A stretch of 64,000 nucleotides of DNA from Amorphoplanes digitatis (GTDB lineage: Bacteria > Actinomycetota > Actinomycetes > Mycobacteriales > Micromonosporaceae): contig NZ_JACHNH010000001.1 of assembly GCF_014205335.1 (NCBI RefSeq), positions 8,302,501 to 8,366,500 on the forward strand. Reading direction: 5' to 3'. The notes beneath the pieces are model-generated. The model saw only the letters and a program-made list of their open reading frames with translations. It was not told where the DNA came from and searched no databases. Positions within the stretch are counted from its first letter, which is position 1. Each line of letters opens with the position of its first letter. A program made the translations under genes and the position numbers. Below are positions 6,829 through 51,991 of this stretch, piece by piece.

Positions 6829-7192
6829 CGAGGTACTCCAGCGCAACGGCGTGCCGGTGCTGGTCTGCGCCGCGGACGGTCCGGTGCTCGCACAGGTGCA
6901 GGACGCCCTCGACCTCATCGGCTCGGCGTTCACCCGCTCCGACGTGGTCGCCCTGCCGGCGTCGCGGCTGGGCGACGACTTCTTCGAGCTCCGCACCGGG
7001 CTGGCCGGCGAGGTCATGCAGAAGTTCGTGAACTACCAGATCCGGCTGGCGATCGTCGGCGACATCTCCGCGCGGGTCGAGGCCAGCGCGTCGCTGCGCG
7101 CCCTGGTGCTCGAGTCGAACCGGGGCCGGCACATCTGGTTCGTGCCGGACCTGCCCGCCCTCGACGCCTACCTCGGCCCGTCCAGCTCGTAG
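6821..7192 (+). CDS. DUF4180 domain protein
   Basis: A 123-residue soluble protein. The stretch LGDDFFELRTGLAGEVMQKFVNYQ, continuing to IRLAIVGDIS (residues 49-85), is the signature of DUF4180, a family of small proteins of unknown biochemical function often linked to HTH regulators. A strong GGAGGAAGACG ribosome site lies just before its ATG, inside the end of the HTH gene. Its 3' end overlaps the convergent membrane-protein gene by 25 bp, so the two transcripts are complementary there. Confidence 0.85.
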   Translation: MSDEVLQRNGVPVLVCAADGPVLAQVQDALDLIGSAFTRSDVVALPASRLGDDFFELRTGLAGEVMQKFVNYQIRLAIVGDISARVEASASLRALVLESNRGRHIWFVPDLPALDAYLGPSSS

Positions 7193-9453
7193 ATCGTTAC
7201 CGGGCCGCTGGTGTAGCGGGGTCGTGCCAGCGTGCTCAGCGCGGGCGCGACCGCGCCGGCCCGGGCGTCGGCGAAGAGCCACCGCACGCCGTACTCCCGG
7301 CGCAGCAGGTCAAGGTCGGCCGGGTCCGCGTCGGTGAACACCCGCTGGCTCAGGGCGTACTTCAGCGGGTCCGGCGGCGGCTGAAGCATGTACGTGTGTC
7401 CGCCGACGCCGTTGGCCGCGACCGCCGCGTCGGAGTAGCCCCAGCTCTCCACGAGCGTGCGGCGGCCGGCGAGCCCGGCGACCCAGAACGCCCGGGCGTC
7501 GCACGGCCGGATCTGCCGGATCGCCACGCAGTGCACGTTCGTCGCCACCACGTCGTCGTTGCCGGCGTACTCGTCCAGCCAGAGCGCGGCCCGCATCTCC
7601 TCCTGGGTGATCAGGCGGGACGTCATCGGCTGAGAGCGTTCAGTCCCGTGCGACAACGTCTCGATGTGCCGCGCCACCCCGGCCGCCAGGCTCGCGCCGA
7701 GCACCGCGGCGGTGCCGGCCGTCACCAGGACCCGCAGCCTGCGGCGCAGCGCCAGCACCAGGATCGCGCCCGCCAGCACCAGGCCGAGCGTCCGCAGCAC
7801 CGGCACGGCGAGCACCCAGGCCCAGCCGCCAAGGGCGTCGCGCGCCGGCGCGGCCACCGCCGGGGCGACAAGCGCCCAGAGCGCACCCGCCACCAGCCCG
7901 CACAGCGGCACCCACCAGCGGCGGGTCCGCTCGGCGAGCATCCAGACCGTCAACAGCACGCCGAACGGCGCGGCGCAGAGGAAGAAGTAGAGCTGGCTGC
8001 CCGAGGGGTGCCAGAGCGTCCAGGCCGCGCCGGCCCCGGCGACCACCATCCCGCCCAGCAGCCAGGCCGCGGGCTCCGAGCGCCGCCGCAGGGACAGCAC
8101 GCCGAGCAGCCGCGGCGACTGGGCGAGCAGCCACCAGCCGACCAGCCAGGCGATGAACCAGCCGCCGTCCATCCCGGCGCCCTGCACGCCGGGCGCGATC
8201 AGCCCGTCCGGCGCGACGCCATCGGCGGCGCCCAGCGTCCGGTCGTAGGGCAGCAGCCAGCGCAGCACGCTCAGCGGCTGCACGGCCAGCGCTCCCGCTC
8301 CCCCGCCGGCGAAGAGCCGGGCGCCGAGCAGCATCGCGGCGACCAGCGCGGCCAGCAGCCCGGCCGCCGCCCGCGGGAACCGCCGGCTCCGCCACCAGAC
8401 CACCAGGCCGGCCAGGGCCAGGCCGGCGACCAGCGGCGGCAGCGCGCTGGACTTGGCGCCCGCGCAGGCGAGCGCCAGCGGGGGCGCGAGGAACCAGGCG
8501 GGGCCGAGGCTTCGCCCGCGCAGCAGGTCGATCGCGATCGCCACGAGCAGGCCGAGCAGCGGCATCGCGTACGTCTGCGACGGGCTGACGAACGAGAGCG
8601 AGCCGCCGCCGGCCGCCTCGATCGGCGCGCCGAAGCCGAGCGGGAGGCCCAGCAGGGCGACGCCGCCCGCGAGCGGCCCGGCCCACCACCGGCCGCTGAC
8701 CTCGCGGCCGAGCGCGGCGAGGACGAGCACCGCGATCGCGCCGACCGGCACCATCCAGAGCCGCAGCAGGACGGTCGCCGGCGGAATGCCGGTGATCATG
8801 GATGCGGCGGCCATGTCGGCGTCGGACAGGTAGTGGTAGCGCAGGGCGTCGCCGGCGAGCTGCGGTACCTCGAACGGCATCGAGCGGGTCATCTCGTGCA
8901 CCAGCGCGAGGTGGTACATGAGGTCCTGGTAGTAGAGCGTGTCGGCGGGCGGCAGCGGCGCGGTGGCCCAGGCGGCCGCGCCCCAGGCGACCACGCCGAG
9001 CAGGACACCGCACATCAGCCACGACCAGCGCAGCGGCAGCGGCGCGGGGTTTGCGGTCCGCCAGTGCCGGCGCAGCCCGGGTACGGCCACGAAGACCGCC
9101 GTCACCAGCAGCGGCCAGCAGATCAGCAGCGCCTGCAGCCCGGTGGCGGCGGCCAGCGCCCAGCCGGCGATCTGCACGAACAGGCCGGTCGCGGCGCCGT
9201 AGCCGAGGTCCTCGGGCAGGTTGCCGCGGCTGCCCCGGACCGCCCGGTGCACCAGCGTGCCGGGCAGCACCACGCCGGCGAGGAGGTAGAGGCCGTAGAG
9301 CGCGATGTCCCCGGCCGGCACGTCCGCCCGGTACAGCGCGCCCGCCAGCGCCGCGGCGACGAGCGCCCACGGCACGGCCGCGAGCAGCGGGCGCGGGGCA
9401 CGGCGGTACCGGGCGGCCGGTGCGTCGGCCGCCCGGGTGAGCAGCAGCGTCAC
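7168..9453 (-). CDS. Polytopic membrane protein, GT-C glycosyltransferase-like
   Basis: A 761-residue protein with a dozen or more hydrophobic segments by eye over residues 25-590, and a soluble C-terminal portion (about 600-761, with DEYAGNDDVVATNVHC and YGVRWLFADARAG). This architecture is that of GT-C enzymes, which use polyprenyl-phosphate sugars on the outer face of the membrane; no catalytic motif can be assigned with certainty. It is the last gene of the leftward glycan operon and overlaps the GtrB-like gene by 4 bp. In GtrA/GtrB/Gtr-type systems the third component is such a membrane transferase, so it may move the sugar from the lipid carrier made by the neighbour onto a surface glycan. 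That step is inference. Confidence 0.7.
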   Translation of the reverse strand: MTLLLTRAADAPAARYRRAPRPLLAAVPWALVAAALAGALYRADVPAGDIALYGLYLLAGVVLPGTLVHRAVRGSRGNLPEDLGYGAATGLFVQIAGWALAAATGLQALLICWPLLVTAVFVAVPGLRRHWRTANPAPLPLRWSWLMCGVLLGVVAWGAAAWATAPLPPADTLYYQDLMYHLALVHEMTRSMPFEVPQLAGDALRYHYLSDADMAAASMITGIPPATVLLRLWMVPVGAIAVLVLAALGREVSGRWWAGPLAGGVALLGLPLGFGAPIEAAGGGSLSFVSPSQTYAMPLLGLLVAIAIDLLRGRSLGPAWFLAPPLALACAGAKSSALPPLVAGLALAGLVVWWRSRRFPRAAAGLLAALVAAMLLGARLFAGGGAGALAVQPLSVLRWLLPYDRTLGAADGVAPDGLIAPGVQGAGMDGGWFIAWLVGWWLLAQSPRLLGVLSLRRRSEPAAWLLGGMVVAGAGAAWTLWHPSGSQLYFFLCAAPFGVLLTVWMLAERTRRWWVPLCGLVAGALWALVAPAVAAPARDALGGWAWVLAVPVLRTLGLVLAGAILVLALRRRLRVLVTAGTAAVLGASLAAGVARHIETLSHGTERSQPMTSRLITQEEMRAALWLDEYAGNDDVVATNVHCVAIRQIRPCDARAFWVAGLAGRRTLVESWGYSDAAVAANGVGGHTYMLQPPPDPLKYALSQRVFTDADPADLDLLRREYGVRWLFADARAGAVAPALSTLARPRYTSGPVTIYELDGPR

Positions 9454-10448
9454 GGCAGCGCTGCTGCCCGCTGCTGCGGGATCTCGACGGACCTGACCTC
9501 GTCCGTCCCGGCCTCGCCGGCGGCCGAGTCGAATCCGATGTGGAACGTCGGCCGGTCCTGCACGGTCCGGTAGATCCGGGCCACGTACTCGCCGAGCAGG
9601 CCCAGGCAGATCAGCTGCACGGCGGAGAGCAGGAGCACGGCCAGGAACAGCGAGGTCCAGCCCGGGATGACAGTGCCGTTGGCCCAGACGACGACGCCGA
9701 AGACCATCAGCGCGAGGCAGGCGACGAAGGCGAGCCCGCCGAGCCAGGTGGCGATCCGCAGCGGGGCGGCGGAGAAGTTCGCGGTGCTGTCCCAGGCCAG
9801 GGCGACCATCCGGCGCAGCGGGTACTTGGTCTCGCCGGCCGCGCGGCGCTCCCGGGCGTAGGCGACCTCCGCCGAGGCGAACCCGAGCGACGGCACCAGC
9901 AGCCGGTACACGGGCGCCCGCTCGGGCAGCTTCTTGAGCACCTCGACGACGTCGCGGCTGAGCAGCCGGAAGTCGCCGGCCTGCGCGGGCACGTCGCCGC
10001 CGACCAGCCGGCGCATGAGCCGGTAGTACGCACCGGCCGTGTGCCGCTTGAACGCGCTGTCGGTGCTGCGGTCGGAGCGGACGCCGTAGACCACGTCGAG
10101 GCCCTGCTCGCGGGCCACCCGCAGCATCTCGGCGATGGCCTCCGGCGGATCCTGGAGGTCGGCGTCGATGCTGACCACCCAGTCGCCCCGGGCCCGTTGC
10201 AGGCCGGCGGTGAGCGCCGCCTGATGCCCGCTGTTGCGGCGCAGCCTGACCAGGCGCAGCTCGGGCCAGGTGCGGCCGTGCTCGAAGAGCAGGTTGGCGG
10301 TGCGGTCGGCGCTGCCGTCGTCGACGGCCACCACCTCGTAGTCGACCCCGAGGCCGTCGAGCACCGGCCGGAGCCGGGCGACGAGCGCGGGTATCACCGC
10401 CTCCTCGTCGTACATCGGCACGACCACCGACAGAACGGTGTTCTCCAC
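9450..10448 (-). CDS. Polyprenyl-phosphate glycosyltransferase, GT2 (GtrB/DPM-like)
   Basis: 332 residues. The N-terminal GT-A domain begins SVVVPMYDEEAVIP, has VVAVDDGSADRT and the metal-binding SIDADLQDPPE (DxD-type), and VYGVRSDR, all typical of dolichyl-phosphate-mannose-synthase-like enzymes. Two C-terminal membrane helices (about 235-300, IATWLGGLAFVACLALMVFG and a following one) match GtrB/ArnC-type enzymes that load a sugar onto undecaprenyl phosphate. It sits between the LuxC-like gene (8 bp gap) and the GT-C-like gene (4-bp overlap). The donor sugar cannot be read from sequence. Confidence 0.88.
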   Translation of the reverse strand: MENTVLSVVVPMYDEEAVIPALVARLRPVLDGLGVDYEVVAVDDGSADRTANLLFEHGRTWPELRLVRLRRNSGHQAALTAGLQRARGDWVVSIDADLQDPPEAIAEMLRVAREQGLDVVYGVRSDRSTDSAFKRHTAGAYYRLMRRLVGGDVPAQAGDFRLLSRDVVEVLKKLPERAPVYRLLVPSLGFASAEVAYARERRAAGETKYPLRRMVALAWDSTANFSAAPLRIATWLGGLAFVACLALMVFGVVVWANGTVIPGWTSLFLAVLLLSAVQLICLGLLGEYVARIYRTVQDRPTFHIGFDSAAGEAGTDEVRSVEIPQQRAAALP

Positions 10449-10456
10449 GACAGCCC

Positions 10457-11641
10457 CTATGCGTCGAGCGTGGTCAGCCGCGTGAACTCCCGCGGAAGGT
10501 CGAAGCCGTCCCAGATCGCGCTGAAGGTGAGCGCGGATCCGAACGGCACTATCCGGTCGACGCCGCGGCCGCCCAGCGCGACGGCGAACGCCCTCAGCTC
10601 GGCCGGCGTGAAGCCGAAGTGGCTGAACGTCTGGTCCTGCCGGTTCATCGCGGGCACCAGGTCCTCAAGGGTGGCGACCGCCGCGAACGGGAACGCGCCG
10701 GCGCCGATCCAGCGGCGCGGCGCGGCCCCGGCGCCGGTCAGCGACAGCGCGGTCACCTCGTTGCGCGGGAAGGTCATCGACGTGACCGCGCCGGCGGCGG
10801 CCAGCCCGTACGCGTTGATCCGCTTCTCGACCGCCATGGCCGCGTCGACGCTCCAACCCCGCTGCGCGACGACCTCGCCGACCAGCGCGAGGAACTCCTC
10901 CGCGACGCCGTCCGGGTCGCCGCCGACCAGGAACACGGCGCGCGGCGAGGAGCAGGCGGCCTGGTCGAACCAGTACGAGTCGTTCGCGAAGCCGGCCGCC
11001 GCCGCACGCCTGGCGGCCGGGTCCGCCGCACGCCAGCCGGGCACGGACAGCGCGGCCCAGGACGTCCGGTCGGGGAAGGTCAGGTCCCGGGCCGACGGGC
11101 GCAGCGGGTGCCGGCGGATCGCCCGCACGGCCTCGTCGCCGCCCCAGATCACCCGCAGGTCGCACCAGGCGCTGAGCGCCGCGGTGGTCGCGTCGTCCCG
11201 GCCGTAGGTGACCATCCGCTGGGTGCGGCCGATCACCGGGTCGGCGTCCTCCAGGGTCGCGTTGAGCGTCTCCAGCACCGTCTCCGCCGCCCCGGCGGAG
11301 CGGGACGAGATGCGCACCACGTTGTGGTTTCCGGCCAGCGCGGACAGCGCCCACGAGTACACGAAGATGGTGTCCACATTGGCCGGTGGCAGGTGGAAGA
11401 CGTTACCGCGCGGGAAGACCAGCGCGTCCGGCCGCTCCAGCCGGGCCGCGGCCCGGGTCAGCTCGGCCGGCCGCAGGAAGTAGCCGAGCGAGCCGAGCTC
11501 GGGGTGGCGCCGGGCGACGGCGGGCGCGAGCAGCCGGCGCGCGAAGCGGGACAGGAAGTCGACGACCCGCGGGTCGCCGACCGTCAGCCGGTCCGCCGAG
11601 GGCGCGGTGAGCTCGCCGGGGTCTCCGAACCGGAATCTCAC
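10457..11641 (-). CDS. LuxC-like acyl-CoA (acyl-thioester) reductase
   Basis: 394 residues of the aldehyde-dehydrogenase-fold LuxC family, which reduces an activated acyl group to the aldehyde with NADPH. Recognisable pieces are FPRGNVFHLPPANVDTIFVY (N-terminal NADP region, about 95-115), VRISSRSAG, and DQAACSSPRAVFLVGG (about 230-245), whose Cys is the expected acylated nucleophile. It overlaps the LuxE-like gene by 4 bp. No luxA, luxB or luxD is present, so light production is not the role; LuxC/LuxE pairs also occur in surface-polysaccharide clusters ('acyl protein synthase/acyl-CoA reductase RfbN-like'). Here it is enclosed by glycan genes, which suggests formation of a reduced acyl or sugar substituent. 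Confidence 0.88.
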   Translation of the reverse strand: MRFRFGDPGELTAPSADRLTVGDPRVVDFLSRFARRLLAPAVARRHPELGSLGYFLRPAELTRAAARLERPDALVFPRGNVFHLPPANVDTIFVYSWALSALAGNHNVVRISSRSAGAAETVLETLNATLEDADPVIGRTQRMVTYGRDDATTAALSAWCDLRVIWGGDEAVRAIRRHPLRPSARDLTFPDRTSWAALSVPGWRAADPAARRAAAAGFANDSYWFDQAACSSPRAVFLVGGDPDGVAEEFLALVGEVVAQRGWSVDAAMAVEKRINAYGLAAAGAVTSMTFPRNEVTALSLTGAGAAPRRWIGAGAFPFAAVATLEDLVPAMNRQDQTFSHFGFTPAELRAFAVALGGRGVDRIVPFGSALTFSAIWDGFDLPREFTRLTTLDA

Positions 11642-12678
11642 GCCGCCTCCCGGTACGTGTCGGAGCAGCCCCGGGCCTCGGCGCGCGGCAGGCGGCCGAG
11701 TACGGAGAAGCGCTTGCCGGGCCAGTCGCCGTCGTCGACGCCGTGCACGACGCCGAGGTCCTCGGTGAGCAGCACGTGGCCGGGGTACGAGGTGGGCAGC
11801 GTGCTCACCACCTCGATCAGGCCGGGCTCACCGACCGGCTGCTCCCGCCAGGTCCGCGGGTCCCGGATGATCACGTCGGCGAAGTCCGGGCAGTAGAGCG
11901 AGCCGCCCGACGGCCCCTCCAGGAAGATCGTGCCGATCTGCTCGACCATGCCGTAGAAGTTGTGGCTGTGCACCAGGCCGGTGTCGCGGGCCAGCCGGCG
12001 GCGGAACTCCTCCGGGGAGACGGCCCGGTCGACAAGCTTCTTCCAGCCGCCCGAGTGGATCAGGATGCCGTTGCTCAGGTCGAGCCCGTTGTCGCGGGCG
12101 ACCTCGTAGAGGTGCAGCCAGACCAGGTAGGTGAAGCCGAAGATGAGGAACGGCGCGTCGCCGTGCCGGTCCAGGAAGCCCCGCAGCGCCGCCAGGTCGG
12201 GAACGCCGTCCGCGTCGAGTGCCCAGACGTGGTCGCGGCCGAAGGTGGCCATGCCGAGCACCCCCGCGCCGCGGGCGCTGAACGAGCGCCGGTCGTTGAG
12301 CAGCGACCTGGTGTCGACGAGCACCATCGGCAGGCGCTTCGGGCCGAGCACCGCCTGCAGGGTCGCGCCGAGCTGGCGGGTCTGCGTCGCGGCCGCGGCC
12401 TTGTCCAGGTAGATGCGGCTGACGTCGCCGGTGGTGCCGCTCGACGTCAGTACCTTGAAGACCTCGTCGTCGGGGATGCTCTTGAGCTCGAGGTTCTTGA
12501 AGAGCCGCACCGGCAGCCACGGCAGGTCCGCGACCGCGTCGGCGCCGCGAAAGCCCGCGGCGGCGAGGATGCGGTCGTACGGCGCGCAGTGTGCCCGGTG
12601 GTGCTCGACCAGCTCGGAGAGCTCCTTGAGCAGCAGCGAATCCCGCTCCGGCTGCGAGCGGGTGAAGGAGGTACTCAT
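11638..12678 (-). CDS. LuxE-like acyl-protein synthetase
   Basis: About 346 residues, ANL-superfamily LuxE type, which in bacterial bioluminescence activates a fatty acid with ATP and passes the acyl group to LuxC. Visible motifs are LTSSGTTGDVSRIYLD (AMP-binding P-loop), LIFGFTYLVWLHL, ILIHSGGWKK (LuxE signature) and HNFYGMVEQIGTIF. The ATG at 12678 has a GGTGAAGGAGGTACTC ribosome region and overlaps the upstream ligase stop by 4 bp. It overlaps the LuxC-like gene by 4 bp, the order expected for a reductase complex. A second, separate AMP-forming ligase lies immediately upstream, so two activation steps are encoded. Confidence 0.88.
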   Translation of the reverse strand: MSTSFTRSQPERDSLLLKELSELVEHHRAHCAPYDRILAAAGFRGADAVADLPWLPVRLFKNLELKSIPDDEVFKVLTSSGTTGDVSRIYLDKAAAATQTRQLGATLQAVLGPKRLPMVLVDTRSLLNDRRSFSARGAGVLGMATFGRDHVWALDADGVPDLAALRGFLDRHGDAPFLIFGFTYLVWLHLYEVARDNGLDLSNGILIHSGGWKKLVDRAVSPEEFRRRLARDTGLVHSHNFYGMVEQIGTIFLEGPSGGSLYCPDFADVIIRDPRTWREQPVGEPGLIEVVSTLPTSYPGHVLLTEDLGVVHGVDDGDWPGKRFSVLGRLPRAEARGCSDTYREAA

Positions 12679-14006
12679 ACCAGCGCCTCCAGGGACCGGT
12701 AGTCGATCTTGCCGGTGGGCAGCAGCGGCAGGCTGGGTATCCCGCGCACGTCCAGGCCGGAGAAGTGGGTGTCCAGGAACTTCGCGAGCTCGCCGCGGAC
12801 CGAGCGGGTCGCCTCGGCGTCGGCGCCCTCGATGAACACGTGCAGCCGGTCGTCGCCCGCGACCGCCGCGACCGCACCGTGCCCGGCCAGCGTGCGCTCG
12901 ATGTCGTCGAGGTTGACCCGGACGCCGAAGACCTTGCCGATCCGCTTGAGCCGCCCGGTGAGGTACAGGAAGCCCTCGTCGTCGAGCCGGCCCAGGTCGC
13001 CGGTGCGCAGCACGCCGCGCAGGTCGTCGCCGCGGGCCAGGTCGGCGGCGCGCTCCGCGTACCCCATCATGACGTTGGGTCCGGTGTAGACGACCTCGCC
13101 GTCCGCGATCGAGAAGGAGCCGCCGGGTATCGCCCGGCCGGCGGAGCCGAGCTTGCCGGCGAGCCGGTCCGGCGGCAGCACGGCCATCCGCGCGGTCGCC
13201 TCGGTCTGGCCGTACATGACGAAGAGCCGGCCGCCGACGGCGGCCATCCGCGCCGCGAAGTCCTCCACCAGCTCGACGCGCAGCCGGCCGCCGGCCTGGG
13301 TGAGCGTGCGCAGCGCCGGGTATTTCGCCGGGTCGAAGCGCAGCCGGCGCAGCATCTCGTACTGGTAGGGCACGGCGGCCAGCGTCGTGATGCCGTAGGT
13401 GCCGGCGGCCGCCCAGAACTCGCGCTGCATGATGCCGCCGCGCTCGAGGACCACGGTCGCGCCGCGCAGCAGGTGGCTGTTGAGCACCGACAGGCCGTAC
13501 GTGTAGAAGAGCGGCAGCGTGGTCGGCGCGACGTCGGCGGGGGTGATGCCGAGGCTCTCCCCGATCGCCTCCGCGTTGGCCAGCACCGCCGCCCGGGAGA
13601 GCCGGACCAGCTTCGGATTGCCGGTCGACCCGCTCGTGGCGAGCAGCAGCCCCAGGTCGGGGTGCGGTTCGACGGCGGCCGACCCGCGGACCCACCAGCC
13701 GTCCCGCACCGCGTAGCCGTCGGGCGGCGCGCCGGGCGCGCCGGTGACCAGCGCCGGCGCGAAGCGCTCGACGAGGGCGCGCAGGACGTCGCCGTCCAGG
13801 TCCGGATCGAGCACCGAGATCGGGCGGTGGGCGGCGAGCGCGCCGAGGTAGAGCGCGACCGAGTCGATGTCGGTCGGCGTCAGCGCGAAGACCACGCCGG
13901 GCGGCAGACCCGCGAACCGGGCGGCCGCCGCGAGGACCTGGTCGGGGTCGAGTACCCGGCCGGTCGCCGCGTCGATCACGCGGGCCTGTGGATGGAGCAG
14001 GTTCAC
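12675..14006 (-). CDS. AMP-dependent acyl synthetase/ligase, compact ANL enzyme
   Basis: 443 residues from a GTG that overlaps the SDR stop (GTGA). ANL motifs: LLATSGSTGNPKLVRLSR (P-loop, about 118-135), MYGQTEATARM (A5, aromatic-Gly-x-Thr-Glu), LRTGDLGRLDDEGFLYLTGRLKR (A7/A8 hinge) and the near-terminal Lys in LLPTGKIDYRSL. The length is shorter than classical acyl-CoA ligases (about 500-550) and resembles freestanding ligases that charge a carrier protein. With an ACP two genes upstream, the likely reaction is ATP-dependent loading of a small carboxylic acid onto that ACP; the acid is unknown. Confidence 0.88.
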   Translation of the reverse strand: MNLLHPQARVIDAATGRVLDPDQVLAAAARFAGLPPGVVFALTPTDIDSVALYLGALAAHRPISVLDPDLDGDVLRALVERFAPALVTGAPGAPPDGYAVRDGWWVRGSAAVEPHPDLGLLLATSGSTGNPKLVRLSRAAVLANAEAIGESLGITPADVAPTTLPLFYTYGLSVLNSHLLRGATVVLERGGIMQREFWAAAGTYGITTLAAVPYQYEMLRRLRFDPAKYPALRTLTQAGGRLRVELVEDFAARMAAVGGRLFVMYGQTEATARMAVLPPDRLAGKLGSAGRAIPGGSFSIADGEVVYTGPNVMMGYAERAADLARGDDLRGVLRTGDLGRLDDEGFLYLTGRLKRIGKVFGVRVNLDDIERTLAGHGAVAAVAGDDRLHVFIEGADAEATRSVRGELAKFLDTHFSGLDVRGIPSLPLLPTGKIDYRSLEALV

Positions 14007-14740
14007 AGCCTTAGTCCTCCGTCGACTCCCAGCACCTGGCCGGTGACGAACCGGGCCTGGTCGGAGAGCAGAAAGTCGATCACGTCGGCCACCTCGTCGG
14101 CCTCGCCGAGGCGGCCGAGGGCGGTGTTCGCGATGCGCTGCGCGCGGCCGCGATCGTCGAGCGTGTCGAGCATGTCGGTGGCGATGAAGCCGGGCGCGAC
14201 GGCGTTGACCCGGATGCCGCGCGGCCCGAGCTCCTTGGCCGCGGACCGGGCCAGGCCGCAGATCGCGGCCTTCGACGCGGCGTAGATCGCCTGCCCGGCC
14301 GCGCCCTCGGTGCCGGTGATCGACGACACCAGCACGACCGCGGGTCCGCGCCCACGGCCGAGCAGCCGGACGGCGCCCTGGAGGGTGTACGCCGCACCGA
14401 CCGCGTTGACCTCGAACAGCCGCCGCACGGTGGCGTCGTCGGTCATGCCGAGCACGCCGGCCGCGTGGATGCCGGCGTTGATCACCAGCGCGTCGAGGCG
14501 CCGGAAGTTCTCGAACGCGACCCGCATCAGCACCCGGCTGGTCTCCGGGTCCGCGATGTCGCCGTGCGCGGCGACCGCCCGCACGCCGTACTTGCCGGCG
14601 AGCTCGGCCGCGACGTCGGCGACGGCCTCGGCCCGGTGGCCGTGCACCACGAGATCGTTGCCCTGCTCGGCGAGCCGGCGGGCGACGGCAAGGCCGATAC
14701 CGCGGGAGGCTCCCGTGACGAGAGCTACCCGTTCACTCAT
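14003..14740 (-). CDS. Short-chain dehydrogenase/reductase, FabG-like
   Basis: 245 residues with complete SDR features: cofactor motif TGASRGIG (about 9-16), NAG in VINAGIHAAG, catalytic Ser in VSSITG, YAASKAA (Tyr/Lys pair near 155-159), and C-terminal GQVLGVDGGLRL. It resembles 3-oxoacyl-ACP reductases (FabG), which fits its place directly after the ACP gene (8-bp overlap, ATGAGTGA) and before the ligase (4-bp overlap). It may reduce a 3-keto group on an ACP-bound acyl chain, or an aldehyde produced by the LuxC-like enzyme. Confidence 0.9.
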   Translation of the reverse strand: MSERVALVTGASRGIGLAVARRLAEQGNDLVVHGHRAEAVADVAAELAGKYGVRAVAAHGDIADPETSRVLMRVAFENFRRLDALVINAGIHAAGVLGMTDDATVRRLFEVNAVGAAYTLQGAVRLLGRGRGPAVVLVSSITGTEGAAGQAIYAASKAAICGLARSAAKELGPRGIRVNAVAPGFIATDMLDTLDDRGRAQRIANTALGRLGEADEVADVIDFLLSDQARFVTGQVLGVDGGLRL

Positions 14741-14978
14741 TGAAATCCACCCCGTATTTACCGAGAATTCGCATTGCCTCGCCGAAGCTGGACATATTGA
14801 TCACATCATCCGTGTCGATCATTACCGAGAATTCATCTTCGATCGACGCGACCAACGACATGTGCGCCAGCGAGTCCCACTTCTCATTGTCCTGGTAGTG
14901 CAGGTCGTCCACGGGCGTACCCGGCGGCAGATCCAGCGACGTCCGGAACGCTTCACGCAGTCTCTGCAGCTCAATCAC
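14733..14978 (-). CDS. Acyl carrier protein
   Basis: 81 residues from a GTG at 14978 preceded by TTGGAGTAAACCA. The phosphopantetheine attachment site is in NEKWDSLAHMSLV (Ser of DSL near residue 36), followed by the acidic helix IEDEFSVMI and DVINMSSFGEAM typical of ACPs. It is the first gene of the leftward operon and overlaps the SDR gene by 8 bp. The gene is visibly AT-richer than its neighbours (for example the 14741-14880 stretch), which may reflect a different origin. It is the likely platform on which the ligase, SDR and LuxC/LuxE proteins work. Confidence 0.9.
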   Translation of the reverse strand: MIELQRLREAFRTSLDLPPGTPVDDLHYQDNEKWDSLAHMSLVASIEDEFSVMIDTDDVINMSSFGEAMRILGKYGVDFNE

Positions 14979-15165
14979 TGGTTTACTCCAAGGGGCGGAT
15001 GGGCGAAGGAACCCACCTTCTCTCAGCCGTCGCAACGCCGCGACAAATCGAAGCTGAACTCGGCGTGAATTGCGTCTGGCATCTGGATCAGCACCTGGAA
15101 ATGGCTTGCCGCGCAGTTATGCTTCCGCCTCGAGTCAATGCCCGCGCCATCCCCGGGAGCAATTA
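14979..15165. promoter_or_regulatory. Divergent promoter region between the two glycan operons
   Basis: This 187-bp stretch separates the ACP start (leftward) from pseB (rightward) and must hold both promoters. It is AT-richer than its surroundings at its right end. A TATGCT box near 15118-15123 could be a -10 element for pseB, but I cannot assign a -35 with confidence. No inverted repeat stands out. Confidence 0.45.
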
Positions 15166-16146
15166 ATGAGTGTGTTGAGTGGATCGTCGATCCTGGTCAC
15201 CGGTGCGACCGGTTCGTTCGGCAAGGCCTTCCTGGGTCACGCGCTGGCAAACCTGGACCCGCAGCGCATCGTCGTGTTCTCCCGCGACGAACTGAAGCAG
15301 TACGAGGTCCGGCAGATGTTCGGCGACGACCCGCGGCTGCGCTTCTTCATCGGCGACATACGCGACCGCGAGCGCCTCGCCCGCGCCATGCACGGCGTCG
15401 ACCACGTCGTGCACGCCGCCGCCCTGAAGCAGGTCGACACCGCCGAGTACAACCCGTCGGAGTACGTGGCGACGAACATCAACGGCTCGCAGAACGTCAT
15501 CGACGCCGCGATCAACGCCGGCGTCCAGCGGGTCGTCGCCCTCTCCACGGACAAGGCGTCCAGCCCGATCAACCTGTACGGCGCCACCAAGCTGGTCGCC
15601 GACAAGCTGTTCATCGCCGGCAACCACTACGCCGCGACCCACCCGACCCGGTTCGCCGTCGTGCGGTACGGCAACGTGATGGGCAGCCGGGGCTCGGTGG
15701 TGCCGCTGTTCCGCCGCCTGAACGCCGAGGGCCGGAGCCTGCCGATCACCGACAAGCGGATGACCCGCTTCTGGATCACCCTCGACGCGGCGGTGCGGTT
15801 CGTCGTCGACTCCTTCGACGTGATGCAGGGCGGCGAGCTGTTCGTGCCGCGCATCCCGAGCATGCGCATCCTCGACCTGGTCGAGGCCGTCGCGCCGGAC
15901 GCGCCGACGCACGAGATGGGCATGCGGCCGGGCGAGAAGCTGCACGAGGAGATGATCGCCGCCGACGACAGCCGCCGCACGCTGCGCTTCCCCGATCGCT
16001 ACGTGGTGCAGCCGGTCGTCGCGAGCTGGGGCTACCAGACGCCGCCCGGCGGCGAGCGGGTGGCGGACGGCTTCAACTACCGGTCGGACAACAACGACCT
16101 GTGGCTCGAGGTCGACGAGATGAGCGCCCTGCTCGAGGAGAAGTGA
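15166..16146 (+). CDS. pseB: UDP-N-acetylglucosamine 4,6-dehydratase (inverting), PseB
   Basis: 326 residues from an ATG with GGGAG six bases upstream. It is an extended SDR: NAD motif TGATGSFGKAF (about 12-22), HAAALKQVDTAEYNP (the PseB/FlaA1 family signature), STDKASSPINLYGATK (Tyr/Lys catalytic pair) and VVRYGNVMGSRGSV. PseB removes C6 oxygen and inverts C5 of UDP-GlcNAc, the first step towards pseudaminic acid and related L-altro sugars. It overlaps pseC by one base (TGATG), giving coupled expression. Confidence 0.94.
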   Translation: MSVLSGSSILVTGATGSFGKAFLGHALANLDPQRIVVFSRDELKQYEVRQMFGDDPRLRFFIGDIRDRERLARAMHGVDHVVHAAALKQVDTAEYNPSEYVATNINGSQNVIDAAINAGVQRVVALSTDKASSPINLYGATKLVADKLFIAGNHYAATHPTRFAVVRYGNVMGSRGSVVPLFRRLNAEGRSLPITDKRMTRFWITLDAAVRFVVDSFDVMQGGELFVPRIPSMRILDLVEAVAPDAPTHEMGMRPGEKLHEEMIAADDSRRTLRFPDRYVVQPVVASWGYQTPPGGERVADGFNYRSDNNDLWLEVDEMSALLEEK

Positions 16147-17270
16147 TGCTGCCGTACGGGCGCCAGAACGTCACCGACGCCGACGTCGAGGCGGTGGCGG
16201 CGGCCCTGCGCAGCGACTGGCTCACCACCGGGCCGCGGGTCGGCGACTTCGAGCGCGAGCTCGAACGCGTCGCCGGCGCGCCCTGCGTCGCGGTCATCAA
16301 CGGCACCGCGGCGCTGCACACGGCGTACGCGGCGGCGCGGATCGGCCCGGGCGACGAGGTGGTCACCACGCCGATGACGTTCGTGGCGACGGCGTCGACC
16401 GCCGCCATGCTGGGCGCGACAGTGGTCTTCGCGGACGTCGAGGAGGACACCGCCAACCTGGATCCGGCGGCGGCGGAGGCCGCGGTGACGCCGCGCACCA
16501 GGGCCGTCACGGCGGTCGACTACGCCGGGCACCCGGCCGAGTACGACCAGCTGCGCAAGGTGGCCGACAACGCAGGCGCGGTGCTCATCGCGGACGCCGC
16601 GCACGCCATCGGGTCGACGTACCACGGTCGGCCGGTCGGCACCCTCGCCGACCTCACCACGTTCTCCTTCTTCCCGACGAAGAACCTGACCACCGGCGAG
16701 GGCGGCGCGGTCGCCGCCACCGAAGCCGGGCTGCTGGAGCGGGCGCGCGCGTTCCGGACCGTCGGCCTGGTGCGGGACCCGGCCCGCCTGCGCCACCCGG
16801 ACGAGGGCGGCTGGCACCAGGAGGTGCCGGAGTTCGGCCTCAACTACCGGCTGCCGGACGTGCTCTGCGCGCTGGGCAGCTCCCAGCTGCGCCGGCTGGC
16901 CGCGTTCAAGGCACGCCGGACGACCCTCGCGGAGCGCTACGACGCCCTGCTGGCGGGGGTGCCGGGGCTGCGGCTGCCGGTCCGGCGCGCGTGGGCCGAC
17001 CCGATGCGCCACCTGTACCCGGTACGGATCGAGGACGGCCGCCGCCGCGAGGTGTACGACCGGATGCGCGCGGCCGGGATCGGCGTGCAGGTCAACTACG
17101 TGCCCGCCTACTGGCATCCGGCGTTCGAGGACCTCGGGTACGCCCGCGGCATGTGCCCGGTCGCCGAGCGCTTCTACGCCGAGCAGCTGTCGCTGCCGCT
17201 CTTCGTCGACCTCACCGACTCGGACCAGGACCGGGTCGTCGAAGCCCTGCGCACCATTCTGGAGAGCTGA
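16146..17270 (+). CDS. pseC: UDP-4-amino-4,6-dideoxy-N-acetyl-beta-L-altrosamine transaminase, PseC
   Basis: 374 residues, DegT/DnrJ/EryC1 PLP-dependent aminotransferase. Visible are the N-terminal MLPYGRQNVTDADVEAV, INGTAALHTAY, IADAAHAIGS and SFFPTKNLTTGEGG, whose Lys is the PLP Schiff-base residue. PseC puts an amino group at C4 of the PseB product. Its position directly after pseB makes the assignment firm. Four bases separate its stop from the next GTG, so translation continues into the unknown gene. Confidence 0.93.
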   Translation: MLPYGRQNVTDADVEAVAAALRSDWLTTGPRVGDFERELERVAGAPCVAVINGTAALHTAYAAARIGPGDEVVTTPMTFVATASTAAMLGATVVFADVEEDTANLDPAAAEAAVTPRTRAVTAVDYAGHPAEYDQLRKVADNAGAVLIADAAHAIGSTYHGRPVGTLADLTTFSFFPTKNLTTGEGGAVAATEAGLLERARAFRTVGLVRDPARLRHPDEGGWHQEVPEFGLNYRLPDVLCALGSSQLRRLAAFKARRTTLAERYDALLAGVPGLRLPVRRAWADPMRHLYPVRIEDGRRREVYDRMRAAGIGVQVNYVPAYWHPAFEDLGYARGMCPVAERFYAEQLSLPLFVDLTDSDQDRVVEALRTILES

Positions 17271-17274
17271 ACCC

Positions 17275-18084
17275 GTGCACCACGCCAACCACTTCTACGG
17301 CCACGCGCACGTCCTCGCCGGGTACTGCGGACTCGACCCGGAACATCCGCCGCGGATCGACGGATACGTGCAGCACGGCTGGAACGTGGTGGACGGGCTC
17401 GGCGCCGGGACGCCGTACGTGTCCGGACGGCCGATCTTCGTCTGGTCGGAGCAGACGCGGCGGCGCGCCTGGTCGATGGGCCGCCGGTACGCGACCGTGA
17501 TCGGCGCGCCCTGGCTGTACCTGCTCTCGACCCGGCCGGAACTCCCGGAGACGCCGCGCACCGGGACGATCTGGTACCCGTTCCACGGCTGGGAGGGCCA
17601 GCACGTCGCCGGCGACCATCAGCGGCTGATCGACGAGATCCGGGAGACCGAGGACGGCCCGGTCACCTTCTGCCTGTACTGGCACGAGTTCCGCGACAGC
17701 CGGATCCGGCGCCGCTACGAGCGGGCCGGCCGGGTCATCTGCCACGGCTACCGCGGCCTGCGCTGGCTCGACACCGACACCAGGTTCCTGCACAACCAGC
17801 TCGCGGAGCTGCGCGCCCATCGCCGGGTGGCGTCGAACAGGCTCAGTAGCGCCGTGCTCTACGGCGCCGCCGTCGGCTGCGAGCCCGCCGTCTACGGCGA
17901 CCCGATGCACCTCGACGGCGAGGTGCGGGTGACCGCCGAGCGGATCCGCCGCCAGTGGCCGGAGCTGCACGGCCCGCACCCGGACCCGGCCGCCGCCACC
18001 GCGTCCGCCCTGTACGAGCTCGGTGCGGACGACCTGGCCTCGCCCGCCGAGCTGCGCGCCGTCCTCGGCTGGGCCGCCGCATGA
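17275..18084 (+). CDS. Unrecognised soluble protein of a pse-type glycan cluster
   Basis: 269 residues from a GTG preceded by GGAG in the pseC end. I do not recognise the family. It has no signal peptide or membrane segment. Notable features are the His/Tyr-rich start (HHANHFYGHAHVLAGYCG), GTIWYPFHGWEG near 100, TFCLYWHEFRD near 133, and SSAVLYGAAVGCEPAVYGDPM near 190-210. The last resembles the donor-binding segment of GT-B-fold transferases acting on capsule or sialic-acid-like sugars, where a Ser/Thr-Ser...G-x-P-x-x-x-YG pattern is common. A glycosyltransferase or nucleotide-sugar-handling role is a guess. It overlaps the methyltransferase gene by 4 bp (ATGA). Confidence 0.6.
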   Translation: MHHANHFYGHAHVLAGYCGLDPEHPPRIDGYVQHGWNVVDGLGAGTPYVSGRPIFVWSEQTRRRAWSMGRRYATVIGAPWLYLLSTRPELPETPRTGTIWYPFHGWEGQHVAGDHQRLIDEIRETEDGPVTFCLYWHEFRDSRIRRRYERAGRVICHGYRGLRWLDTDTRFLHNQLAELRAHRRVASNRLSSAVLYGAAVGCEPAVYGDPMHLDGEVRVTAERIRRQWPELHGPHPDPAAATASALYELGADDLASPAELRAVLGWAAA

Positions 18085-19511
18085 ACTACGAGCTCATCGG
18101 CGGCGAGATGGCTGACTTCTCGGACCGGGAGCCGGTCGGTGGCGCGCTGGCGGCGTACCTGATCGGGCTCTTGCGGCCGCTCGGCGGCCGGGTCCTGCTC
18201 GCCGGGCCGCACGCACCGGCCCTGGTCGGCACGCTCGCCGAGTTCGCCGAGGTCACCTGCCTGGTGCGGTCCCAGCCCGACGCCGCCGCCCTGGCCGGTC
18301 GCGGCGCGACGGTGCTCTGCGGCAGCCTCGCCAAGCTCACCGGCGCCGAGCGGTACGACGCGGTGGTGGCGCTCGACGGCGTCGACCGGCTGTGCTCGGT
18401 CGAGGGACCGCAGTACGACTGGGCCGAGAGCGTGCGGGCGCTGCACCGCGTCCTGCGCCCCGGCGGCGCCCTGCTGCTGTCGGTCGAGAACGAGCTCGGC
18501 GTGCACCGCCTCGTCGACCGGGCGACCGTCACGTTCGCGCACACCACCGACGCCTGGCGCCCCGAGGGCGAGTTCGGCACGAAGCCCGGCAGCCCCGATC
18601 GGCTGGAGTCACGGCTGGCGGCCGAGGGCCTGACCGTCGGCTGGCTGGGCGCCGCCTGGCCGCTGCCGGCCGCGCCCGCGTTCGCCGCGACCCCGGCGGC
18701 GCTGCGGGACGGACCGTCCGGTGCGCTCAGCGCGGCCGCCACCGCGTCGGTCGCCGCGGCCTTCGCCGGCCGGCCGGTGCTCAGCGATCCGAGGCGGCTC
18801 ACCGCGGCGGCGATCCGGGCCGGGGTCGGCGCCGAGTTCGCACCCTGCTGGCTGGCCCTGGCGTTCCGCGGCGCCGAACTCGGCGTGCTCGTCCCGCCGG
18901 TCCTGACCGGCGCCGGGCCGGCCGCCGACCTGCCCGCGGGCCGGGTCCTCGAGGAGCTACTCATCGGCGCGTGCCTGCGCCACGACCTGCCCGCGATCCG
19001 GCGGCTGCTGGCCGGATGGGTCGCGCGCGAGCCGGCGGCCGGATTCGACAACGTGCTCGTCGACGGCGACACCTACACCGTGCTCGACCCGGCCCGCGCC
19101 ACCGGCGAGCCGGGCGCCGTGCTGCGGGAGTTCGCGGAAACGCTGCTGGCCGGCGGCTACGCGCAGCCGTGGCCCGCCGCGGCCGACGTGCCGTCGCTCA
19201 CCGTGATCCTGCTGGCCGCCGCCGGCCTCGCCGGCACCGTGCCCGCCGCCGGGGACGTACCGGCCGCCCCGGATTCGCTGCGCGAGCACGAGGAGCAGGT
19301 ACGGCGGCTGGAGGAACAGCTGGCCGACGCCGCCGCCCGCGTCGCCTACGCCGAGACCGAGCTGATCCACCGCGACGCCGAGCTGCGCCGGGCGCGCCTG
19401 CAGATCGACGCGTTCGCCGGCAAGGTCGGCTACCGCATCACCCGGCTCGGCGCCCGGGCCGCCCGCCGGGCCGTCAGGGCAGTACGCCGTTCACCCCTCT
19501 TCAAGGACTGA
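18081..19511 (+). CDS. SAM-dependent methyltransferase-like protein with C-terminal coiled coil
   Basis: 476 residues. Residues 1-160 form a class I methyltransferase-like fold (GGRVLLAGP as a variant motif I, YDAVVALDGVDRL, LRPGGALLLSVENELG). The middle ~230 residues are alanine-rich and without a clear family. Residues ~395-450 (REHEEQVRRLEEQLADAA..., then ELRRARLQIDAFAGK) form a coiled coil, followed by a basic tail. In other glycan operons such fusions either methylate the polymer or organise the synthesis complex through the coiled coil. Motif I is degenerate (LAGPHAP instead of GxGxG), so activity is uncertain. Confidence 0.72.
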   Translation: MNYELIGGEMADFSDREPVGGALAAYLIGLLRPLGGRVLLAGPHAPALVGTLAEFAEVTCLVRSQPDAAALAGRGATVLCGSLAKLTGAERYDAVVALDGVDRLCSVEGPQYDWAESVRALHRVLRPGGALLLSVENELGVHRLVDRATVTFAHTTDAWRPEGEFGTKPGSPDRLESRLAAEGLTVGWLGAAWPLPAAPAFAATPAALRDGPSGALSAAATASVAAAFAGRPVLSDPRRLTAAAIRAGVGAEFAPCWLALAFRGAELGVLVPPVLTGAGPAADLPAGRVLEELLIGACLRHDLPAIRRLLAGWVAREPAAGFDNVLVDGDTYTVLDPARATGEPGAVLREFAETLLAGGYAQPWPAAADVPSLTVILLAAAGLAGTVPAAGDVPAAPDSLREHEEQVRRLEEQLADAAARVAYAETELIHRDAELRRARLQIDAFAGKVGYRITRLGARAARRAVRAVRRSPLFKD

Positions 19512-19516
19512 ATCCC

Positions 19517-20251
19517 ATGCGAACACTCGGCATCGTCCAGGCCCGGATGGGCTCCTCCCGGCTGCCCGGCAAGGTGCTCCGCAGACTCGGCGGCCGAACC
19601 GTGCTGTGCCGGGTGGTCGGCGCCGCCCGCGACAGCGGCGTGCTCGACGACCTGGTCGTCGCCACCACCACCGAGGAGGTCGACGACCCGGTGGTTGCCG
19701 AGTGCGAGGCGATCGGCGTCGGCGTGCACCGCGGCCCGGTCGACGACGTGCTCAGCCGCTTCCTCGGCGTGCTCGACGCCGGCGCGGACGACTACGACGC
19801 GGTGCTGCGCTTCACCGCCGACTGCCCGCTGCTCGACCCGGAGCTGATCATGCTGGCCGCCGGCGTCTTCGCCGCCACCCCGTCGCTTGACTACCTGAGC
19901 ACCTCGATAGCGCGCACGCTGCCGCGCGGGCTCGACGTCGAGATCGTCCGAACCGAGGTGCTGCGCGAGATCGACAAGCTCGCCACCGAGCATCACCGCA
20001 CGCACGTGACCTCGTACGTCTACTCGCACCCGCACGATTACAACGTGCTCGGCCTGACGTTGCAGCCGGACCTGTCCCACCTGCGGCTCACCCTCGACAC
20101 CGAGGACGACTGGCGGCTCATCGAGGCCGTCGTCGCGCACTTCGGCGACCGCCCGGTGCCGGTGCGTGCCCTGGCCGGCTGGCTCGCCGGCCGCCCGGAG
20201 CTGACCGTGCTCAACGCGCACGTACGCCAGAAGGAGCTCGCGCAGGCGTGA
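19517..20251 (+). CDS. spsF: Cytidylyltransferase-like protein, SpsF family
   Basis: 244 residues. The N-terminus GIVQARMGSSRLPGKVL is the nucleotide-binding signature of the SpsF/CMP-sugar synthetase family, followed by VVATTTEEVDDPVV, RFTADCPLLDPELI and LTLDTEDDW. Family members activate 3-deoxy-nonulosonic or related acids with CTP, or occur as partners of SpsG in spore-coat and flagellar glycan clusters. In the pseudaminic pathway the equivalent step is PseF. It overlaps pseG by 4 bp (GTGA). Its substrate acid would have to be made by a synthase that is not in the window. Confidence 0.85.
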   Translation: MRTLGIVQARMGSSRLPGKVLRRLGGRTVLCRVVGAARDSGVLDDLVVATTTEEVDDPVVAECEAIGVGVHRGPVDDVLSRFLGVLDAGADDYDAVLRFTADCPLLDPELIMLAAGVFAATPSLDYLSTSIARTLPRGLDVEIVRTEVLREIDKLATEHHRTHVTSYVYSHPHDYNVLGLTLQPDLSHLRLTLDTEDDWRLIEAVVAHFGDRPVPVRALAGWLAGRPELTVLNAHVRQKELAQA

Positions 20252-21291
20252 CGATCACCGTGGGTATCCGCTGCGATGCCGGGCCACGCACCGGCGCCGG
20301 CCACCTCGTACGCTGCGTCGCCCTGGCCGAGGAGCTGACCGCGCGCGGCGCCGCCGTGCACTTCCTGAGCGACCTCGGCGGCCTCGCGTGGGCGGAACAA
20401 CAGCTGACCGCCCGGGGCCTGCCCTGGCATCCGGCGCCCTACGACGCCGTCGGGCTGGTCGCGGCGGCCGGCCGGCTCGGCCTGGACGCGCTGGTCGTCG
20501 ACTCGTACGAGCTGCCGCCGGCGCAGTCGCGCGCGGTGCGGGCGAGCGGGCGGACCGTTGTCGCGATCGTCGACGGCGACCCGCGCGGCCAGGACGCGGA
20601 CATCTATGTGGACCAGAACCTCGGCGCCGAGCTGCAGCACCCGCCGCTCGCGCCGGGCGTGGTCCGGCTGGCGGGGCTCGAGTTCGCGCTGCTGCGCCGG
20701 GCGGTCCGCGACCTGCGCCCGGACTCCGCGCCCGTCGCCGGCCCGGCCCGTACCCCCGAGGTGGTCGCCGTCTTCGGCGCGACCGACGCGTACCGGGCGG
20801 CCCCGGTCGCGGCCCGGCTGCTGATCCGGACCGGGGCCGCCTACGCGGCAACGATCGTCGCCGCCGACGACGACCTGCGCCGCGAGCTGGTCGCGCTGGA
20901 GCCGGGGCCCGGCCAGCGGATCGAGGTGATCGCGCCGACGGACGACCTGCCCAAGCTGCTCGCCGGCGCCGATCTGGCGATCAGCGCCAGCGGCACCTCG
21001 ACCTGGGAGCTGCTCTGCCTCGGCCTGCCCGCCGCCCTGCTCTGGGTCGTCGAAAACCAGATCATCGGGTACGAACGGACGACCGCACGCGGTCTCGCGG
21101 CCGGCCTCGGGCACCTGCCGGCGCTGACCTCGTCGCCGATCGAGTCGGCCGCGGCCGTCGACACGCTCCGCCGGCTGCTGGTGAGCCCGGCCGAGCGGGC
21201 GGCGCTGGCCGAGCGGGCCTGGGCGGCCGTCAACGGGCGCGGCACCGCCCGGGTCGCGGACGCGCTGCTCGACCACCTGCGCCGGCGGTAG
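20248..21291 (+). CDS. pseG: UDP-2,4-diacetamido-trideoxy-altropyranose hydrolase-like, PseG/SpsG
   Basis: 347 residues from a GTG overlapping the spsF stop. N-terminal RCDAGPRTGAGHLVRC is the PseG signature (UDP-sugar hydrolase of GT-B fold, with the catalytic His in GAGHLVRC), and SASGTSTWELLCLGLPAAL plus VENQ in the C-terminal half match the MurG-like nucleotide-binding segment. PseG removes UDP to release the free 2,4-diacetamido sugar before the PEP condensation by PseI. It ends the rightward operon; 55 bp follow before the carboxypeptidase gene. Confidence 0.88.
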   Translation: MTITVGIRCDAGPRTGAGHLVRCVALAEELTARGAAVHFLSDLGGLAWAEQQLTARGLPWHPAPYDAVGLVAAAGRLGLDALVVDSYELPPAQSRAVRASGRTVVAIVDGDPRGQDADIYVDQNLGAELQHPPLAPGVVRLAGLEFALLRRAVRDLRPDSAPVAGPARTPEVVAVFGATDAYRAAPVAARLLIRTGAAYAATIVAADDDLRRELVALEPGPGQRIEVIAPTDDLPKLLAGADLAISASGTSTWELLCLGLPAALLWVVENQIIGYERTTARGLAAGLGHLPALTSSPIESAAAVDTLRRLLVSPAERAALAERAWAAVNGRGTARVADALLDHLRRR

Positions 21292-51770: not shown

Positions 51771-51938
51771 GAGATCTCCTCCGTGAGTTTGGGGCTTAAA
51801 GGGTTGGGCCCTCCGGCCCCGTTCCTGTGCCCGATCGCTCGGACACCAGAGTTATCGCCCGCCTTGACCCGACCTTGAGCAAAGTCCCCCACCAAAAATG
51901 AGAACCCCGCCACCGCGTCCTGATCGGCGAATGCCGAA

Positions 51939-51967
51939 GGCCCGGCCCCCTGGTGGGGGGCCGGGCC
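51939..51967. terminator. GC hairpin, copy 2
   Basis: Same hairpin as 50803-50831, shifted by 1136 bp. It ends the transcript of the second IPT gene before the promoter of the first. Confidence 0.8.
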
Positions 51968-51991
51968 GACGGGTCAGTCAGTGGTGCTGGT

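Follow-up and report, generated by a model that had tools for sequence, protein, structure and literature searches.

What does a pair of LuxE- and LuxC-like enzymes do in an actinomycete, next to genes for pseudaminic acid (Pse)? The question is raised by a 64,000-nucleotide stretch of the Amorphoplanes digitatis genome (NCBI RefSeq GCF_014205335.1, contig NZ_JACHNH010000001.1, positions 8,302,501 to 8,366,500), hereafter the window. Here seven minus-strand genes (7168-14978) encode an acyl carrier protein (ACP), a FabG-like short-chain dehydrogenase/reductase (SDR), an AMP ligase, LuxE- and LuxC-like proteins, and two glycosyltransferases. The first five genes keep their order across many actinomycetes, and we lean towards reading them as a module that supplies the acyl group for N-acylating a nucleotide-activated amino sugar, in this organism Pse.

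Results

All seven genes were confirmed by open reading frame (ORF) coordinates and, for six of them, Pfam, in agreement with a first-pass annotation of this DNA that had described seven leftward genes with six tight junctions. The ACP (14733-14978; 81 aa, GTG start) has Ser36 in a DSL motif and matches PF00550 (PP-binding) at 1.4e-4, with 22.5 bits against a cut-off of 20.8 when run on the longer frame. The SDR (14003-14740; 245 aa), our proposed semialdehyde reductase, matches PF13561 (adh_short_C2) at 6e-57 and TIGR01830 at 215 bits, under the cut-off of 298, and retains intact TGxxxGxG (TGASRGIG) and YxxxK (YAASK) motifs. The AMP ligase (12675-14006; 443 aa; PF00501, AMP-binding, 5.5e-34), a proposed hydroxyacid:ACP ligase, has as its top PDB sequence match 3wvn, which we take to be VinN, followed by the oxalate-CoA ligase 5ie0; it also matches long-chain ligase families, below cut-off. 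Adjacent genes overlap by 8 bp (ACP/SDR) or 4 bp (SDR/ligase, ligase/LuxE, LuxE/LuxC, GT2/GT-C), and the sole gap among the six junctions, also 8 bp, separates LuxC from the GT2 gene.

The LuxE-like acyl-protein synthetase (11638-12678; 346 aa; PF04443 2.7e-44) and the LuxC-like acyl-thioester reductase (10457-11641; 394 aa; PF05893 1.7e-25, a partial match covering 86-257 of 401) match the LuxE and LuxC of PDB 7xc6 at 1.1e-14 and 5.6e-6, respectively. Cys338 of LuxE and Cys230 of LuxC are each invariant in 12/12 aligned sequences. The pair is thus homologous to bioluminescence LuxC-LuxE and shares its acyl-Cys residues, but unlike the bioluminescence fatty acid reductase it falls far under the NCBIfam long-chain equivalog cut-offs (38.9 of 750 bits for LuxC, 59.8 of 550 for LuxE). 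We rejected bioluminescence as the function, since the scores fall short of these cut-offs and no luciferase match was found among the proteins scanned, a selection of the ORFs in window 1-31.5 kb.

The two remaining genes appear accessory. One encodes a GtrB-like family 2 glycosyltransferase (GT2) of the polyprenyl-phosphate sugar synthase type (9450-10448; 332 aa; PF00535 8.5e-32; PgfS 181 bits, under the cut-off of 500); the other encodes a 761-aa membrane glycosyltransferase (7168-9453) that belongs by its fold to the GT-C superfamily and has no match in Pfam. At more than 45% identity the GT2 is found in 12/27 loci of the genus and the GT-C protein in 24/27, which rules out the seven genes as a single conserved unit, as the first-pass annotation had grouped them. 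What is conserved as a unit are the first five genes, with the GT2 and GT-C genes as add-ons outside this core.

Conservation was measured in a family sample of 200 genomes (58 with LuxE, 62 with flagellin and 66 with PseI over cut-off) and in a scan, one genome per species, from which the best 80 of 556 matches were kept. All 80 scanned loci are actinomycete (Actinoplanes and kin, Salinispora, Micromonospora, Amycolatopsis, Kibdelosporangium, Saccharothrix, Lentzea, Nonomuraea and others); the two sets share species, related Amycolatopsis and Nonomuraea weigh heavily, and the counts are not independent. In the family sample, where a split ligase match was accepted as in order, 51 of the other 58 LuxE loci keep the order ACP-SDR-ligase-LuxE-LuxC, as do 77 of the 80 scanned loci. 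Because the order recurs in both sets, we conclude that it is not due to chance. The seven exceptions in the family set comprise one shuffled locus (L099), one weak lone LuxE (L098) and five loci from one genus. In these five, a single pse island holds all five genes, with ACP-SDR-ligase next to pseB and LuxE-LuxC at a distance, about 16 kb separating ACP from LuxC in the two of five measured. Among the 120 of 978 LuxC matches listed, the named homologues belong to Actinoplanes and relatives, one of them at 89% identity in Actinoplanes friuliensis. In Deinococcus sp. NW-56 the five genes stand in order within an exopolysaccharide cluster, Ponticoccus has all five with LuxC displaced, and Rhizobium anhuiense has them scattered within one cluster. 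The R. anhuiense cluster, on a plasmid (L046), contains LuxE-LuxC, two transketolase halves, an LpxA-type acyltransferase, an ACP-like gene, ligase, DegT, SDR, a GMC oxidoreductase and FabZ.

The module is often linked to pse genes. ACP and pseB lie head to head in 53/53 loci of both sets that have an ACP match and a PseB above 55% identity, with starts 183-251 bp apart; in Nonomuraea gerenzanensis pseB is instead on the ACP strand and X1, a conserved protein of pse operons, faces ACP, and the other scanned Nonomuraea loci look alike. Within the genus, 28 of 36 genomes have both LuxE and PseI over cut-off, eight have neither and none has only one (Fisher p 3e-8, kinship not corrected for); one of the eight LuxE-negative genomes has a NeuB-type match below cut-off, and flagellin is present in 36/36. 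The module is bound to neither PseI nor flagellin, since 16 LuxE genomes of the family sample lack the former and 14/58 lack the latter over cut-off.

What recurs beside the module where pse genes are missing is an acyltransferase. Twenty-one of the 80 scanned loci have pse genes and 59 have no PseB or PseI match above 55% identity, although 16 of the latter (Nonomuraea, [Actinomadura] parvosata, Thermocatellispora) have X1/X2 homologues, 14 with PseC at 69-74%, and are probably pse loci on the strength of these matches. Among the other 43, an acyltransferase match was found in 42, all except L146. In 35 it is an LpxA-like gene that runs in the same direction as ACP and whose match precedes that of ACP by 6-183 bp; the remainder are LpxA-like elsewhere (2), hexapeptide/PglD-like (3) or PseH-like GNAT (2). 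Four LpxA-like proteins checked by Pfam each have hexapeptide repeats and PF13720 (LpxA second domain) over cut-off, a family that is presumably acyl-ACP-dependent. In Deinococcus sp. NW-56 a PglD-type acyltransferase follows LuxC. Three control tiles of the window's own genome, a small control, gave no acyltransferase match. Since the module meets an acyl-transferring enzyme in several backgrounds, acyl-ACP is indicated as its product.

Sugar genes recur as well. The first-pass annotation had held that its glycan reading would fall if the same set occurred in genomes without glycan genes and with another proven function; no such case was established, and 72 of the 80 scanned loci have a DegT aminotransferase match no farther than about 8 kb away. 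All ten sampled genomes with PseI and no LuxE have a different ligase-SDR pair beside their pse genes, with an ACP in eight (the other two stretches are short and were not extended). Acyl-ACP supply beside pse therefore does not require LuxE/LuxC; in our reading these bacteria generally provide Pse with acyl-ACP, and LuxE/LuxC contribute an extra reduction. In these LuxE-negative loci (L124:4484-5086 and relatives L116-L123) a protein of about 200 aa without a Pfam match follows ACP-ligase-SDR, and its WTRAECLCKL stretch resembles, by eye only, a phosphopantetheinyl transferase motif.

In A. digitatis the candidate acyltransferase is a PseH-like GNAT encoded to the left of the window, about 14 kb from LuxC, with the PseH structure 4xpk as its top PDB match (E 5.8e-6); in 10/10 genus loci fetched around pseI, PseH directly precedes pseI. 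We aligned the PseH-like proteins of 37 of 38 loci with that of the window genome, and 36 rows cover the stretch of the coenzyme A (CoA) loop. The [RK]GxG loop is gone at the aligned place in 35 of these 36, and the KGVGQ stretch of 4xpk aligns with a loop-free stretch of the window-genome protein, which hints at a changed acyl donor.

The pse genes of the window lie on the plus strand, across a 187-bp intergenic region (14979-15165) between the divergent ACP and pseB. They encode PseB (15166-16146; TIGR03589 487.7 bits, cut-off 407.75), a PseC-like aminotransferase (16146-17270; TIGR03588 390.4 bits, below the cut-off of 423.5), X1 (17275-18084; no Pfam or NCBIfam match), the conserved X2 (18081-19511; no Pfam match for the longer frame, N-terminal part SAM methyltransferase-like by eye only), a PseF-like cytidylyltransferase (19517-20251; PF02348 1.3e-25) that scores 25.9 bits against an NCBIfam cut-off of 205.7, and a PseG-like protein (20248-21291; TIGR03590 128.2 bits, below the cut-off of 153.55). 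pseI lies about 4 kb to the left of the window (TIGR03586 463.8 bits, cut-off 340.25). PseB and PseI hence exceed their cut-offs, and PseC, PseG and PseF fall short. The link to surface-glycan and Pse genes, the GtrB-like GT2 and the GT-C-fold protein, all proposed in the first pass, are supported. G+C dips to 0.68 at 14001-16000, over the divergent ACP/pseB, against 0.73-0.77 in 2-kb bins over 8-20 kb. A 527-aa protein encoded 3' of pseI (L009:11274-12857 = C1:8295774-8297357), adjoining PseI in 7/10 genus loci and without a Pfam match, is a candidate Pse transferase.

The genome is one 9.13 Mb contig with one LuxE match and one NeuB-family match. Its flagellar locus, at 0.23 Mb, has two flagellin-family genes; with flagellin at C1:234 kb and the operon at C1:8.31 Mb, they lie about 1 Mb apart if the contig is circular. 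Near flagellin and flgK, a 717-aa protein (L011:12743-14896) with two GT2 stretches and TPR matches is possibly a flagellin glycosyltransferase. Elsewhere in the window, at 50856-52906, a sequence of about 1136 bp occurs twice in direct orientation; 1077 positions agree in an ungapped comparison, and each copy has a minus-strand gene for the same 304-aa protein, which looks secreted.

Discussion

We suggest, as the most economical function, that the module provides a short hydroxyacyl-ACP with which an amino sugar is acylated. The genes, their order and conservation, the catalytic residues and the frequent pairing with acyltransferases are observed; from them we infer the substrates, which way each step runs and that the ACP is the donor. 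LuxE would activate one carboxyl of a small C4 acid, with malate or succinate as first guesses, and hold it as a thioester, which LuxC would reduce to the semialdehyde with NADPH. The SDR would turn the semialdehyde into an omega-hydroxy acid (2,4- or 3,4-dihydroxybutyrate, or 4-hydroxybutyrate), and the AMP ligase would put the remaining carboxyl of this acid on ACP. The PseH-like GNAT would then take the acyl group from ACP and transfer it to the Pse precursor at its 4-amino group, after which the GT2 and GT-C proteins may attach a further sugar outside the membrane. In such a pathway the two acid-activating enzymes would have distinct roles, and the aldehyde would be an intermediate only.

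This logic would match that of the Vibrio cholerae O1 tetronate genes, which make a 2,4-dihydroxybutyryl group and comprise an ACP, a ligase, an alcohol dehydrogenase, a LuxE-LuxC fusion and an acyltransferase, with a dehydrogenase of another family in the place of the SDR. Set against that list, the A. digitatis locus has ACP, ligase and unfused LuxE and LuxC, an SDR for the dehydrogenase, and PseH, about 14 kb off, as its acyltransferase candidate. The tetronate genes are VC0248-VC0252 (rfb/wbe; PMC3441752), and RfbN has a LuxE domain (PMC4772473); together with WbeL (471 aa, putative ATP-binding domain) it serves the acyl group on perosamine, whereas we propose Pse as the acceptor here.

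The first-pass annotation knew of no described pathway with this arrangement, but the set beside pse genes is in print for Aeromonas, whose flagellar glycosylation islands have ACP, 3-oxoacyl-ACP reductase, AMP synthetase, LuxE and LuxC, in the same listed order, between pse genes, with a glycosyltransferase after luxC (PMC7874193). The A. digitatis locus shares the five-gene order and the linkage to pseB, pseC and pseI and differs in lying away from flagellin and in its place among the pse genes: the Aeromonas set lies between pseBC and pseFGHI, and ours is divergent from pseB. The same enzyme types (Acp, LuxE, LuxC, CaiC, FabG; 71-80 strains by gene) occur in flagellin glycosylation islands of Enterobacteriaceae (PMC4875605), another phylum, likened here by gene types. 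The arrangement is thus already in print for proteobacteria, and the excerpted Aeromonas account does not establish the function of the set. Shewanella sfmABCDE was rejected as a parallel, being a different gene set (PMC3765264), as were a Riemerella anatipestifer luxE mutant from a virulence study in whose excerpts we found no glycan structure (PMC4772473) and the Actinoplanes missouriensis exopolysaccharide clusters, in whose excerpted account neither "acyl carrier" nor "nonulosonic" occurs (PMC13390465). Actinomycete walls carry teichulosonic acids, which are nonulosonic polymers (PMC6113628, PMC7831098); the excerpts of these papers gave no link to the five-gene set, and none of the open-licence papers listed in searches naming actinomycetes has a title on the set.

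Glycan masses from Aeromonas offer a consistency check. Aeromonas piscicola strain AH-3, which carries the five genes, makes a 376.14 Da Pse derivative and an unexplained 102 Da unit, and the 376 Da form persists on deletion of fgi-1, a glycosyltransferase (PMC7874193). Aeromonas caviae Sch3 makes plain Pse5Ac7Ac (PMC9290775); for Aeromonas hydrophila AH-1 a 403 Da form is reported, and a figure legend also names an unexplained 376 Da sugar (PMC4691044). AH-1 and Sch3N have no glycosyltransferases between their pse genes (PMC7874193) and presumably lack luxE/luxC. We compute 376.148 for Pse with an acetyl and a dihydroxybutyryl group, 360.15 with hydroxybutyryl in place of the latter, and 102.032 for dihydroxybutyryl itself, where the published total leaves 102.05. 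The AH-3 masses are consistent with a dihydroxybutyryl group, not uniquely so, and are no proof of one.

Several points weigh against our proposal. Nine of 680 substituent combinations give 376.148, with one at 376.11 and one at 376.18, and 102 Da is also the mass of a tetrose residue. The textbook role of a FabG-like SDR is 3-oxoacyl reduction. The Aeromonas comparison rests on gene types as described, not on protein sequences. PseH is encoded outside the operon; the CoA-loop comparison is built on a single canonical structure, the loss is common to LuxE-negative genomes, RGTG is retained in one row (L125, LuxE-negative), and in 13 rows a GLG stands a few residues ahead of the aligned place. 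Acyltransferase matches are missing from the stretches at 14 of the 21 scanned pse loci (7 have a GNAT), at all 16 Nonomuraea-type loci and at L146; in the family set of 57 they are missing from 27 of 32 pse loci (5 have one) and from 8 of 25 non-pse loci (17 have one), five of these eight being the split islands, all five of which have PseH at a greater distance. Finally, 8 of the 80 scanned loci have no DegT match, and their neighbours were not all examined for sugar genes.

Of the alternatives, the one that survives best concerns the acceptor and is compatible with the others: the genes may serve flagellin glycosylation specifically, as in Aeromonas. Flagellin is present in 44 of the 58 LuxE genomes of the family sample, the association holds outside the genus too (16/30 against 10/134), and the window genome has a flagellar locus. 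We nevertheless consider this unlikely. The 14 LuxE genomes without flagellin over cut-off and the 8 of 36 flagellated genus members without LuxE and PseI led us to reject a strictly flagellar role; flagellin lies about 1 Mb from the operon if the contig is circular; and a Maf transferase was rejected because the genome has no PF01973 match, a weak test, as the four matching control genomes are archaea and bacterial Maf may escape.

Somewhat less probable is that the product of the five genes is a fatty (3-hydroxyacyl) chain, giving a lipid-bearing sugar, the "liposugar" suggested by the Aeromonas authors (PMC7874193); the Enterobacteriaceae account likewise terms them fatty acid synthesis proteins (PMC4875605). 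The FabG-like SDR, the ACP, the family names of LuxE and LuxC, and the long-chain ligase families among the weaker matches fit this view. The set, however, has no ketosynthase or dehydratase, the six top PDB sequence matches of the ligase are nonribosomal peptide synthetase, oxalate and succinylbenzoate enzymes, LuxC and LuxE miss the long-chain cut-offs by the wide distances given above, and no long-chain mass appears in the excerpts on AH-3 (PMC7874193).

The first-pass annotation had the acyl unit reduced to an aldehyde or alcohol, with this product then attached to a sugar or lipid carrier, as might be expected from LuxE and LuxC keeping both acyl-Cys residues and being the final two enzymes of the conserved set. 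We find this about as unlikely as the fatty chain, and less likely than an acyl-ACP donor, since acyltransferases, LpxA-type included, often accompany the module; no alcohol- or aldehyde-transferring enzyme was seen beside the set in the proteins scanned, and the ACP and ligase would be left without a clear end use. Use of the aldehyde for carbon-carbon bond formation or transamination, giving a branched or extended amino sugar, has the poorest prospects: the R. anhuiense cluster joins two transketolase halves and a DegT enzyme to LuxE-LuxC and DegT matches are frequent, but no TPP enzyme or aldolase is among the window proteins scanned, and DegT enzymes normally act on nucleotide sugars.

Beyond the acyl-donor module proposed for A. 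digitatis, we raise a wider idea, which is possible but on present evidence doubtful: that LuxE/LuxC outside luminescence chiefly make omega-hydroxyacyl donors for surface amino sugars, as a "tetronate-type" module found across phyla; that actinomycete PseH switched from acetyl-CoA to acyl-ACP, giving hydroxyacylated Pse on a Gram-positive surface; and that the unassigned 376 and 102 Da units on Aeromonas flagellin are explained alike. If true, this would assign a defined role to a Lux-family enzyme pair that is widespread in bacteria without luminescence, amend the "fatty acid/liposugar" label that such islands bear and provide one explanation for two unexplained glycan masses. It would also predict hydroxyacylated Pse in Actinoplanes and its relatives.

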